DNA from: Chryseobacterium herbae | GTDB lineage: Bacteria; Bacteroidota; Bacteroidia; Flavobacteriales; Weeksellaceae | Direction: 5' to 3' | Length of the DNA: 64,000 nt | Assembly (NCBI RefSeq): GCF_025154075.1 | Contig: NZ_JAOAMU010000002.1 | Location: 814,775-878,774, forward strand | Program-made: the position numbers and the translations under genes | In this document: in pieces, positions 59,255 through 62,389 of the stretch | Position numbering within the stretch: the stretch's first letter is position 1 | How the letters are laid out: every line of letters begins with the position of its first letter | Notes under the pieces: generated by a model | Databases searched by the model: none | What the model was told of the DNA's origin: nothing | Seen by the model: only the letters and a program-made list of their open reading frames with translations

Positions 59255-59402
59255 GGATGTTCTACTTAACATAAAATAATAATCCTCATTAAATTTCTTT
59301 ATTTTTTGAGGATTTTGTACTTTGAGACGTGGAGTTTTTAGTTTTTATGTTAAAATTGTAGTATTTTTAGCAAAAATACTGCTGTACGAGTAGAGTTTGA
59401 GC

Positions 59403-59923: not shown

Positions 59924-60739
59924 ATGGAGTTAGAAAATTTTAAAGAACTTTGGGATAAAGATACCAGGCAGGATCTGCCCGAGATCTCTCTGGAGAAACA
60001 GCGTGAAATTCATTCGCCGATGCGGATGCTGAAGATCAATATGCAGACAGAATTCTGGCTTATGATTGTTACTCTGCCTATGCTTTTAATAGGATTTCCT
60101 TTTGCTTCCGGAGATTCGAATATTGTTATCATATCGGCATTCGTCGTCGCACTTACGCTTGCTTCTATCATTTATTTTTATTCCCGTTTTCTCAAGCTTT
60201 ACAAAATGCTTTGCAACAGCAGCATCAATACAAATTATGATCTGTTCAACCTTAAAACACAACTTTTAATATCGAAAGAAATCTACATTTCCTATTATAT
60301 TGCCTACATTCCGTTGGCTTTTCTGTTGTCTCTTATCAAAATCAACTTTCATTTTGAGGCGAAATATAATCTGGCGATTTTCGGGATCAGTTTCCTGATT
60401 ACACTGATGCTGGTATGGTTTGTGATCAAATACTGGATCTATTATATGTATGGGCGATATATAGAAGACGTTGTACGTTTGGTAGATGAACTGAACGACC
60501 TTGAAATAGAACCTAAGAAAGTGAGAAAAAATTCATGGTTTGAGCGCTCTCAAAGATTCTTCATGAATAAATTCGGGCTTCAGGGGAACATTCTGAATAC
60601 CGTAATATGGTTTGTTTCCGTGTATATTTTTATCGTTATTTTTCTGACATTGGTCCTATTAATTTTCATTATTATTGGCGTAAAACTTCATTTTATCGAT
60701 ATTCACACCCTTCAAAATGCCTTAGACAGACTGAATTGA
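59924..60739 (+). CDS. Membrane protein paired with sigma factor, module 1
   Basis: A 271-residue protein. The N-terminal 35 residues (MELENFKELWDKDTRQDLPE) form a soluble segment that may bind the sigma factor. Four hydrophobic segments follow: about residues 46-64 (LMIVTLPMLLIGFPFASG), 70-88 (IVIISAFVVALTLASIIYFY), 125-140 and 153-173. A C-terminal extra helix pair is at 221-262. The first 190 residues align with the module 2 protein at 61761 (shared 'ELW/AW-D-(D/V)-(E/Q)-PEIS' start and 'YYMYGRYIEDVVRLVDEL' against 'YGRYIVHIEDLMKEL'). A membrane anti-sigma or sensor role is inferred only from pairing and topology. Confidence 0.75.
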   Translation: MELENFKELWDKDTRQDLPEISLEKQREIHSPMRMLKINMQTEFWLMIVTLPMLLIGFPFASGDSNIVIISAFVVALTLASIIYFYSRFLKLYKMLCNSSINTNYDLFNLKTQLLISKEIYISYYIAYIPLAFLLSLIKINFHFEAKYNLAIFGISFLITLMLVWFVIKYWIYYMYGRYIEDVVRLVDELNDLEIEPKKVRKNSWFERSQRFFMNKFGLQGNILNTVIWFVSVYIFIVIFLTLVLLIFIIIGVKLHFIDIHTLQNALDRLN

Positions 60740-60936: not shown

Positions 60937-60966
60937 TGTAACATTTTTGCTTTTTTTCTACTAACT
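60937..60966 (+). promoter_or_regulatory. TGTAACA-N16-ACTAACT motif, copy 1 (candidate ECF promoter)
   Basis: TGTAACA at 60937-60943 and ACTAACT at 60960-60966 are separated by 16 nt. The same pair with the same spacing recurs at 61197-61226, directly upstream of the second sigma gene. The predicted start is near 60974. The interval to the terminator at 61147 is unannotated. Confidence 0.5.
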
Positions 60967-61180
60967 ATTAAAAACATACAATGTTAGTGTCCAAATTCGG
61001 ACTGTTACTGTTCAAATTTTTAACTGACTGTTCAATTTAAAATATAAGCCGTTCATGAGTCGGTTTATAGATTAAAATTATTTCGTACAAAGACTGTGTT
61101 TTTCTGAAACATAGATTGGAGTAAAACTAAAAAAACACACAATGGGCCCTGCAGGAAATTTTCTGTTGGGTTTTTTTTTA
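60967..61180 (+). ncRNA. Candidate small transcript between the two sigma modules
   Basis: This interval starts just after the copy 1 motif and ends in a hairpin with a T-run (61147-61170 stem, T-run 61171-61179). It contains an 18-codon open frame at 60981 but no convincing protein. The inference is from the promoter-like motif and terminator at its two ends. There is no RNA family match. Confidence 0.3.
61147..61180 (+). terminator. Terminator-like hairpin before sigma module 2
   Basis: CCCTGCAGGAA pairs with TTCTGTTGGG (one mismatch and G-U pairs) around ATTT, followed by nine T. It lies 66 bp before the second sigma gene and 330 bp after the first module's terminator. Confidence 0.6.
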
Positions 61181-61196
61181 TCTTTTCAAAAATATC

Positions 61197-61226
61197 TGTA
61201 ACATTTTTTTACAATTAAAACTAACT
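61197..61226 (+). promoter_or_regulatory. TGTAACA-N16-ACTAACT motif, copy 2 upstream of sigma module 2
   Basis: TGTAACA (61197-61203) and ACTAACT (61220-61226), 16-nt spacer. The ATG of the second sigma gene is at 61244, giving a leader of about 10 nt. Spacing fits an ECF -35/-10 pair; autoregulation is the inference. Confidence 0.55.
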
Positions 61227-61243
61227 CTATAGAGCCCGAAAAT

Positions 61244-61744
61244 ATGAACTCATTAGAGCAGGAATTTTTAGACAAAATAGAAAAGCATAAAGGAATCATT
61301 TTCAAGATTTCTAAAATGTACATGTCCGAAAAAGACGACCGTGATGATCTTTTTCAGGAAATCACTTACCAGATCTGGAAAGCCTATCCTAACTTCAAAG
61401 GACAAAGTGAATTTTCTACCTGGCTTTACAGAATTGCCCTGAATACGGCCATTATTTTTCTGAAATCCGAGAAGAGGAGAAGTTTTATCTCTAATGAAGA
61501 TTTTGCCGGATACAAAGTTATTCAGGATGACTATGATTATGGAAAGGAAGAAAAACTGGTTCAGATGTACGAAGCGATCCGCCAGCTGAACTCTATTGAT
61601 AAAGCTTTTATCTTTTATTATCTGGAAGACTTTTCAGGAAAAGAAATTGCAGAACAGATGGGAATCTCTGAAGGGAATGCCAGAGTAAGAATGAACCGGG
61701 CCAAAAATAAACTGAAAGATATCTTAAACTCAAATCAACCATAA
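61244..61744 (+). CDS. ECF-type RNA polymerase sigma factor, module 2
   Basis: A 166-residue paralogue of the sigma factor at 59403. Region 2 is 'EKHKGIIFKISKMYMSEKDD', 'RDDLFQEITYQIWKAYPNFK' and 'SEFSTWLYRIALNTAIIFLK'. Region 4 is 'IDKAFIFYYLEDFSGKEIAE' plus the helix-turn-helix 'QMGISEGNARVRMNRAKNKL'. The two factors keep the same order and spacing, so one module duplicated. The upstream TGTAACA-N16-ACTAACT pair is a good candidate for autoregulation. The membrane protein gene starts 16 bp after its stop. Confidence 0.9.
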   Translation: MNSLEQEFLDKIEKHKGIIFKISKMYMSEKDDRDDLFQEITYQIWKAYPNFKGQSEFSTWLYRIALNTAIIFLKSEKRRSFISNEDFAGYKVIQDDYDYGKEEKLVQMYEAIRQLNSIDKAFIFYYLEDFSGKEIAEQMGISEGNARVRMNRAKNKLKDILNSNQP

Positions 61745-61760
61745 CTTTAAATCAGTACCA

Positions 61761-62351
61761 ATGAATATAGATGAATTAAAAAATGCATGGAATGAAGATG
61801 TTTCCGAAGAAACACCTGAAATAAGTATTGAGCAGAGAAATAAGATCAGTCTTCCGCTGGAAAAAATGCGTAAAAACATGCGTATGGAATTCTGGTCCAT
61901 CATTGCGATCTTTACCTTCTCATTTATCGTGTGTGCTTTTTGTCAACCCTTTAAGTTACAGTTTTATATTACCGTTCTTATAGCGTCAATGCTGATGGTG
62001 ACCATCTTCTTTTTCAGTAAATTTTTCAGACTTTACAACGATATCAGCAACCCAATGCTTAAAACCTATGATTCGTTAAAAGATCTGGTCATGCAAGTCA
62101 ATCTCAATAAGCAATATTATCTGTCGTATTATCTGAGTTTTGTACCGTTTATCGTCTGCGAAATGATTATCGTGATAGAATTTATTCCATGGCCTGAACC
62201 GATGAGCGAAATAAAAATTGCCGTGATCCTGATCAGCTCAGTGACGGTAGGACTTTTTGTGTTGTTTTTAGCCGGGAAATTCTGGTTTCATAGGTATTAC
62301 GGAAGGTATATCGTACATATCGAAGATCTTATGAAAGAATTAAAAAGATGA
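61761..62351 (+). CDS. Membrane protein paired with sigma factor, module 2
   Basis: A 196-residue protein, shorter than its module 1 paralogue by the C-terminal helix pair. The N-terminal soluble segment is MNIDELKNAWNEDVSEETPE, then 'ISIEQRNKISLPLEKMRKNM'. Four hydrophobic segments lie at about residues 45-62, 66-88, 115-135 and 148-170. The end 'RYYGRYIVHIEDLMKELKR' matches the corresponding module 1 segment. No zinc-binding anti-sigma motif (HxxxCxxC) is present, so if it is an anti-sigma factor it is of another class. Adjacency to the sigma gene and duplication of both parts are the main arguments. Confidence 0.75.
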   Translation: MNIDELKNAWNEDVSEETPEISIEQRNKISLPLEKMRKNMRMEFWSIIAIFTFSFIVCAFCQPFKLQFYITVLIASMLMVTIFFFSKFFRLYNDISNPMLKTYDSLKDLVMQVNLNKQYYLSYYLSFVPFIVCEMIIVIEFIPWPEPMSEIKIAVILISSVTVGLFVLFLAGKFWFHRYYGRYIVHIEDLMKELKR

Positions 62352-62352
62352 A

Positions 62353-62389
62353 AATAGTTTCGGCGGGCTGAAAGCCCGCCGAAACTATT
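62353..62389. terminator. Perfect 17-bp palindrome between convergent genes
   Basis: AATAGTTTCGGCGGGCT pairs exactly with AGCCCGCCGAAACTATT around GAA. It lies between sigma module 2 and the S41 protease, and its GGGCT/AGCCC core resembles repeat A. Confidence 0.85.

Follow-up and report, generated by a model that had tools for sequence, protein, structure and literature searches.

A predicted small RNA of Chryseobacterium with a putative ECF sigma factor promoter and a 3' part homologous to the end of an M4 protease gene

Organization of the locus

The window (the whole stretch of 64,000 nucleotides of the Chryseobacterium herbae genome analysed here) contains two ECF sigma factor genes, termed sigma1 and sigma2, each of which is followed by the gene of a putative anti-sigma factor with hydrophobic stretches (Table 1). 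Neither of the two putative anti-sigma factors matches a Pfam or NCBIfam family at E<=0.001. The two gene pairs are separated by an interval in which we predict a small RNA, and the second pair is followed by a very strong 17-pair hairpin (62353-62389) between anti-sigma2 and an S41 peptidase gene; this hairpin, which has a similar counterpart in the related locus L091, is probably a terminator. Orthologs of sigma1, for which at least 71% identity was required (the next matches reach 64% or less), were found in 87 of 173 genomes of the genus, and orthologs of sigma2 (E<=1e-70) in 144 of the 173. In both searches 20 to 21 candidates per genome were scored, and sigma1 matches with an in-frame stop (G011, G073, G174) were counted as present.

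Table 1. Features of the sigma1-sigma2 region of the window
Feature	Position	Strand	Basis
sigma1, ECF sigma-70 factor, 169 aa	59403..59912	+	Sigma70_r2 (E 5e-13), Sigma70_r4_2 (E 2e-9)
putative anti-sigma1, 271 aa, hydrophobic stretches	59924..60739	+	next gene after sigma1; role suggested by position and sequence
promoter-like element of the small RNA	60937..60966	+	TGTAACA-N16-ACTAACT, exact; extended form TGTAACATTTT..CTACTAACT
predicted small RNA, about 205 nt (long form)	60973..61179	+	start placed about 7 nt downstream of ACTAACT; 3' end at the T-run
conserved RNA core (box A, hairpin, box B, terminator)	61074..61179	+	alignments A2 and A3
box A, ATTATTTCG, conserved, mainly unpaired	61077..61085	+	alignment and structure
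box B, AAAACACACAATGGG, conserved, mainly unpaired; last bases enter terminator stem	61132..61146	+	
terminator hairpin and T-run	61144..61179	+	-13.4 kcal/mol; hairpin 61144-61173, T-run to 61179
promoter-like element of sigma2	61197..61226	+	TGTAACA-N16-ACTAACT, exact
sigma2, ECF sigma-70 factor, 166 aa	61244..61744	+	Sigma70_r2, Sigma70_r4_2
putative anti-sigma2, 196 aa, hydrophobic stretches	61761..62351	+	role suggested by position

A conserved motif upstream of sigma2 and of the interval

The original prediction started from an identical pair of half-sites, TGTAACA-N16-ACTAACT, at the head of the interval and upstream of sigma2. Both copies are exact and lie where they had been placed, and the second indeed ends 17 bases 5' of the sigma2 start codon. 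They are the only exact sites within the window; the four other matches have three mismatches each, and the total equals the shuffle expectation. The complete host genome (5.13 Mb, 15 contigs) contains three exact sites, namely the pair in the window and one upstream of an M36 protease gene, and the shorter core TGTAAC-N17-ACTAA occurs four times, before the interval, sigma2, the secreted M36 protease gene and a gene for a secreted M43-type protease. When one mismatch is allowed, this core has 44 sites in the genome compared to 137 for the reversed control, and such loose matches therefore carry no meaning.

Among 80 named Chryseobacterium loci (811,345 bases, both strands; up to one mismatch allowed at spacing 16, none at 15 or 17) we found 131 sites, all in a single orientation and all falling into four classes, i.e. 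upstream of sigma2 (80), upstream of a noncoding interval like the present one (33), upstream of an M4 protease gene (10) and upstream of sigma1 (8), whereas the reversed pattern (spacing 16, one mismatch) has no match in the same bases. The sigma2 site is present in all 80 loci (72 exact) and the site of the interval in 33 of 80 (32 exact). In the best 30 sigma2 ortholog loci from a search of 59 genomes, the site is located at -46 to -59 with a spacing of 16 throughout (26 exact, four with one mismatch); judged by this comparison, the site upstream of sigma2 is a phylogenetic footprint. It had also been noted that the gap upstream of sigma1 lacks the pair. This holds for the C. herbae genome, yet sigma1 has the pair in the eight relatives just mentioned. 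In the clade of C. herbae the region before sigma1 (59350-59402) shows instead of the TGTAACA motif a recurring inverted repeat, GTAGTATTTT..AAAATACTGC, followed by GTACGAGTAGAGTTT, and this replacement suggests that sigma1 has passed to a different control in this clade.

A stricter pattern, TGTAACA-N14-CTACTAACT, was surveyed in 296 sampled genomes of the family together with its reversed control. It occurs exactly in 77 of them, which belong to this genus except for four genomes of one other genus, and in these four the site again lies upstream of an ECF sigma factor gene; the control is 0 in every row. Because of this difference, the enrichment of the site exceeds what chance would produce in these sequences. 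Lack of enrichment upstream of genes on a genome-wide scale had been named as an outcome that would refute the promoter reading; enrichment is present both in the family survey and in the named loci (131 of 131 sites upstream of the four classes against none in the control), and the reading was not refuted. Two boxes with a fixed spacing that are common to a sigma factor gene and to further genes are what is expected of an ECF sigma factor promoter. The sigma2 element had been interpreted as an autoregulated promoter. Comparison supports a promoter-like element in front of the sigma factor gene, which would have a transcription start 6-8 nt after its right box and would depend on a sigma factor. 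In one genome of the neighbouring genus (G334, locus L216) the ECF sigma factor frame that follows the site is interrupted early by a stop codon.

A conserved and structured RNA in the interval

The interval had been predicted to give rise to a short RNA of about 200 nt closed by a hairpin at 61147-61180. The hairpin is present at nearly this position (Table 1; z -2.0), and its helix is formed in 96.7% of cells across 44 sequences, although a mechanical terminator scan did not list it, probably because of an internal mismatch in the stem. As to the RNA, comparison supports a short terminated transcript of about 205 nt, the fold of which has a z-score of -1.96 (7 of 200 shuffles are equally stable). 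All 33 intervals that bear the site contain, 3' of it, the same series of elements, i.e. ATTATTTCG, a hairpin, AAAACACACAATGAG and a terminator, with either sequence sometimes replaced by a variant (the boxes were located by best match, with up to four mismatches in the most diverged rows). The predicted length of the RNA ranges from about 85 to 210 nt across these intervals, and an extra 5' domain in the clade of C. herbae (alignment A4, 13 long forms) accounts for the length of about 205 nt found here.

A search with model R1, built from 34 sequences, detected the RNA in 89 of 173 genomes of the genus at E<=0.01 and in 61 of 173 at E<=1e-5 (hereafter strong matches); the C. herbae genome has a single match (E 6e-13). 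The RNA of locus L114, which had been left out of alignment A2 beforehand, was recovered by the model. Two of the 61 strong matches are 3' ends of M4 protease genes (G126, G161) and 59 are stand-alone RNAs, 55 of which are preceded by the promoter element (at most one mismatch, spacing 16 or 17; 45 exact). No recognisable promoter was found for the other four (G002, G117, G164, G179), although sigma1 is present in these genomes. In an order-wide scan with R1, nine of 296 sampled genomes gave a match at E<=1e-4, all of them from this genus, i.e. one of 90 genera.

Several observations argue that the structure and sequence of the RNA are maintained. In alignment A3, which comprises 44 R1-aligned matches including four M4 gene ends (85 sources searched), 95.2% of the cells of the two helices are paired, and 49 cells with changes on both sides of a pair were counted compared to 13.0 in shuffled alignments. 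The covariation value is 0.380 versus 0.238 in shuffles, with the reservation that the alignment is fitted to the model, which favours structure; none of 500 shuffles reached either value. Between clades with the long and the short form of the RNA, cores are 66% identical, compared to 48% for shuffled cores and 54% for the 100 nt before the promoter (252 pairs). Fourfold-degenerate sites of the sigma2 operon, compared in the 29 of 33 RNA loci in which both genes of this operon were found, have decayed to 36% identity in the most distant bin, a gap-free figure that is not directly comparable with the 66% of the core. Since the core is conserved above flanks and shuffles while fourfold sites have decayed, and since the hairpin covaries, the RNA is, as far as these alignments tell, under selection. 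No conserved open reading frame was seen in the interval in six relatives, and Rfam scans of 8 kb and of the interval returned nothing at the gathering score (best score 24.6 bits, gathering score 59).

By comparison, the interval thus combines a promoter-like element of its own, an intrinsic terminator, a conserved structure and the lack of a conserved open reading frame, as expected of an independent bacterial small RNA. Alignment of the interval in related strains had been suggested as a check, and it is in relatives that the interval proved to be a conserved, structured RNA. We consider it very likely that a conserved sigma-linked RNA exists, and on the evidence of its sequence the RNA gene is conserved in many species of the genus Chryseobacterium.

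Secreted protease genes preceded by the motif

Outside the sigma1-sigma2 locus, the sites read in relatives precede genes for M36 fungalysin-type proteases (eight cases read directly, six more by coordinates), a second M4 protease and M43-type proteases. Por_Secre_tail, a sorting domain of the type IX secretion system (T9SS), was found on the M4 protein and on one M43 protein. Further off-locus sites lie 176 nt before an alpha-L-fucosidase gene and 192 nt before a gene whose 169-aa product matches no Pfam family, and one, at the end of a contig, is not followed by any gene. At the two loci concerned (L210 and L214) the exact sites are followed by 176-192 nt without a gene, which are possibly long leaders or further small RNAs.

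An M36 ortholog (at least 64% identity) is present in 45 genomes, 44 of which were examined (G156, with a truncated match, was left out; in 4 of 30 loci, where the start codon was not located, a fixed stretch was scanned). The site precedes the M36 gene in 34 of 41 genomes with sigma1, 14 times exactly at spacing 16 and 20 times at spacing 16 or 17 with no more than one mismatch, and is missing before the best M36 match in the other seven. The three remaining genomes have no sigma1, and two of them have no site before M36; the third has a site with one mismatch, which counts as present. In the C. herbae genome itself two M36 genes, 69% identical over the searched part, are arranged in tandem (G000:C14:48655-53141), with an exact site before the first.

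Which sigma factor transcribes the RNA

It had been proposed that the RNA is made by the same sigma factor whose promoter carries the second motif. If sigma2 was meant, this part needs correction. Sigma1 is present in 58 of the 61 genomes with a strong RNA match compared to 87 of 173 overall (Fisher 4e-20, uncorrected for phylogeny), whereas sigma2 is no more common in these genomes (50 of 61) than overall (144 of 173; Fisher p 0.83), and ten RNA genomes have sigma1 and no sigma2 match at E<=1e-70 (G025, G034, G097, G098, G112, G122, G160, G174, G177, G191). All 21 genomes with exact off-locus CTACTAACT sites have sigma1, and in the 12 sampled genomes that have exact sites and no sigma1, each site lies before sigma2 (six read, six located by coordinates). 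In addition, the two kinds of sites differ in the letters CT directly 5' of ACTAACT, which are present in 50 of 51 sites not belonging to sigma2 compared to 9 of 80 sigma2 sites. (The 21 off-locus genomes, the ten sigma1-only genomes, the 45 exact RNA promoters and the 14 exact M36 sites were counted by hand.) Owing to this co-occurrence and to the CT letters, sigma1 appears to be the likelier driver of the RNA and of the proteases, with sigma2 as a related partner.

The association is incomplete on both sides. Of the 87 sigma1 genomes, 29 have a weak match to the RNA or none, and three RNA genomes are without a sigma1 match. In one of these (G159), an assembly of 75% completeness, sigma1 can be seen with a broken frame; the other two have no sigma1, and their RNA promoters deviate, reading ACTAATT at spacing 17 in G105 and TGTAATA in G157. 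As sigma1 and the RNA are neighbours, their joint loss by a single deletion would explain part of the co-occurrence, though not that with the distant sites. The four RNAs without a promoter stand beside an existing sigma1, so that decay does not follow solely from the loss of sigma1.

The strongest alternative leaves the RNA as described and assigns its synthesis to sigma2, or to both sigma factors equally. The half-sites and their spacing are identical at the two promoters, no other site is kept as widely as that of sigma2, the letters CT do occur in a minority of sigma2 sites, and G105 and G157 keep the RNA without sigma1. Given that sigma2 is not associated with the RNA, that ten genomes keep the RNA without a sigma2 match, and that the letters CT and the off-locus sites go with sigma1, we regard this alternative as unlikely.

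Homology to the 3' end of an M4 protease gene

Many relatives carry an M4 protease gene between their sigma1 and sigma2 operons, and the 3' end of that gene occupies the position taken by the RNA core in C. herbae. Model R1 scored 36.5 to 68.9 bits on ten M4 gene ends (81 sources searched for these tests); unrelated terminators reached up to 38.2 bits, which is above three of the ten, so that seven are clear. The reverse model R2, built from 12 M4 gene ends alone, ranked ten M4 ends first and then 20 small RNA loci in a row, including L114 (62.1 bits, E 3e-8) and the window (49.3 bits, E 7e-6); further RNAs follow, interspersed with opposite-strand readings of M4 ends (42.0 bits at most), and the first unrelated terminator scored 36.0 bits. 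Models from either side thus find the other, as expected for a small RNA derived from a 3' UTR, and by this measure the 3' part of the RNA and the 3' end of the M4 gene are homologous.

Some relatives also have box B downstream of the M4 reading frame, in its 3' UTR; the corresponding stretch in L107 has AAAAAAACACACAATGG in common with the RNA of C. herbae, in G126 box B and the terminator of the RNA are found in the M4 3' UTR, and in G161 the M4 gene ends directly in the RNA-type hairpin, box B and terminator, i.e. the RNA core is the M4 3' UTR. In the RNA of L114, the final codons of the protease remain as a close copy. Five of 80 loci contain both the RNA and the M4 gene, and C. herbae has lost the M4 gene (best match 43% identity) and kept the RNA. 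The RNA therefore looks as if it was born from a protease gene that lost its body, the direction from gene to RNA, and not the reverse, being indicated by the coding remains. A count of AAAACACA after stop codons was set aside together with its p value, as the first count had placed the M4 gene of L107 among the controls. In G152 (locus L220) the M4 protease gene lacks a terminator of its own and runs into the small RNA promoter; in this genome and in G161, protease mRNA and small RNA would share one 3' end.

Such an origin raises the question of whether promoter and terminator are an inert scar that was left by the deletion of the M4 gene and is transcribed without function. The homology itself, the protease codons in L114 and the four sigma1-bearing genomes that have the core without a promoter would all be compatible with this view. 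A scar would hardly have kept its core above the flanks between clades whose fourfold-degenerate sites have decayed, nor a covarying hairpin, and it would not account for a promoter that is kept in 33 of 80 loci and is exact in all but one of these, or for the loci that keep RNA and M4 gene side by side. We thus think it improbable that the RNA is functionless.

Proposed regulon and function of the RNA

We propose that the two motifs would be ECF sigma factor promoters of one small regulon, which in C. herbae would comprise sigma2 with anti-sigma2, the secreted M36 and M43 metalloproteases and the RNA. The promoters of the RNA and the proteases would most likely be driven by sigma1, and sigma2 may either share them or mainly serve its own promoter. 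An M4 gene of the same regulon would have lost the body of its reading frame, so that promoter, last codons, 3' UTR and terminator stayed behind as an RNA that is now kept by selection. By pairing with mRNAs through its unpaired boxes, this RNA would tune the secreted-protease programme whenever the sigma factor is active. As a whole, this explanation, for which we infer transcription, sigma dependence and base-pairing, seems probable to us. For the part that the RNA acts in trans as a regulator within the secreted-protease programme, judged from sequence, we see roughly even chances.

Searches for targets gave nothing consistent above shuffled controls, either in 19 leaders or among the box B complements of the host genome. 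The duplex energies of 16 of the 19 leaders with the RNA core of C. herbae are not beyond z -2, the pairings being long, gapped and U-rich, and the only three leaders beyond this value are M4 leaders of other genomes (G149, -5.3; G027, -2.4; G017, -2.3). Complements of box B with up to three mismatches occur at 28 sites of the host genome including the RNA itself, compared to 11 for the reversed control, and none of them is near the start of an expected target. Pairing of box A with GAAATAAT in protease leaders, an idea that had arisen by eye, was dropped because such letters are common in AT-rich DNA.

A more specific version of the proposed regulon is offered tentatively and may well be wrong. 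An extra ECF-controlled copy of the M4 gene could have lost its coding body, and the remaining stub could have been kept as a stand-alone RNA that imitates the protease mRNA at its 3' end and serves as a feedback arm, to be re-used where the M4 gene was lost. If so, the stub RNA would titrate an RNase, an RNA-binding protein or another RNA acting on such ends, or it would pair with the mRNAs of sister proteases. A protease gene would then have become its own regulator, and in species without the M4 gene, such as C. herbae, the RNA would have been re-used for other mRNAs.

Two further readings of the interval are both very unlikely in our judgement. According to the first, transcription from 60973 reads through the hairpin into sigma2, with the interval acting as a leader or attenuator. 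In C. herbae, and in 29 of the 33 loci that bear the RNA site, the RNA is indeed immediately followed by sigma2, but sigma2 has a conserved promoter of its own downstream of the hairpin, the RNA precedes a protease gene instead in L095, L102, L114 and L116, and it is kept in the ten genomes without a sigma2 match. According to the second, the motif is not an ECF promoter but an operator for a DNA-binding regulator. The CGT box found at -10 of the ECF motif SM6 of Flavobacterium psychrophilum (PMC9723704) is indeed absent here, the right box being ACTAACT in both sites of the window; against an operator stand the fixed spacing of the half-sites, their almost invariant distance from the sigma1 and sigma2 start codons, the single orientation of all 131 sites and the co-occurrence with sigma1. 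That the interval encodes a small peptide is extremely unlikely and was rejected: C. herbae has two frames of 19 codons (from ATG 60982 and ATG 61143), but among the six genomes read the first is confined to C. herbae and the second differs between genomes in both length and sequence, its ATG being absent from L054, and the changes follow the pairing of the RNA.

Relation to known systems

Sigma-E of enterobacteria makes the small RNAs MicA, RybB and MicL, which form the RNA arm of its envelope programme. The proposed regulon resembles this system in that an ECF sigma factor would make a small RNA, and differs in that no Rfam family matches the RNA. Bacterial small RNAs derived from 3' UTRs share their 3' end and terminator with an mRNA. 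Here, in contrast, the coding body is gone and the 3' end alone follows a promoter of the kind that the gene has, and the RNA persists in a genome that has lost the parent gene. It would represent a traceable birth of a small RNA, in which living species still show the parent gene, apparent intermediates and derived forms side by side.

Within the Bacteroidota, the nearest precedent in the material available to us is Rfp18 of F. psychrophilum, a small RNA of the same order whose deletion lowers the mRNA of two metalloproteases (PMC9723704). Both RNAs are linked to secreted metalloproteases; compared by description only, the RNA of C. herbae differs in its association with an ECF-type promoter and with the 3' end of a protease gene. 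The same account describes the SM6 promoters, which serve T9SS components and include that of the small RNA Rfp11 (PMC9723704). The likeness lies in ECF-type promoters common to an ECF/anti-sigma pair, to secretion-linked genes and to a putative regulatory RNA, and the difference in the right half, ACTAACT, and in the genes concerned, which here are secreted proteases. SigP with PorXY of Porphyromonas gingivalis is likewise a Bacteroidota ECF sigma factor system serving a T9SS programme, but it controls the secretion machinery and not the present regulon, and the part of the report available to us notes no small RNA (PMC4800418). In the titles and abstract openings that we surveyed, neither a small RNA of Chryseobacterium nor ECF sigma factor control of secreted proteases nor this motif is described. 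The present analysis provides the letter code of a promoter, two candidates for the sigma factor, an RNA and protease targets, each of which can be tested by deletion of a single gene.

In G130 (locus L222, G130:C57:1-500) an exact site at a contig end is followed by a predicted RNA, about 65 nt long and ending in a terminator of its own. It carries TTATTGTGTTTTTAG, which is partly complementary to box B, and this RNA is possibly an antagonist of the small RNA, or the complementarity is due to chance.
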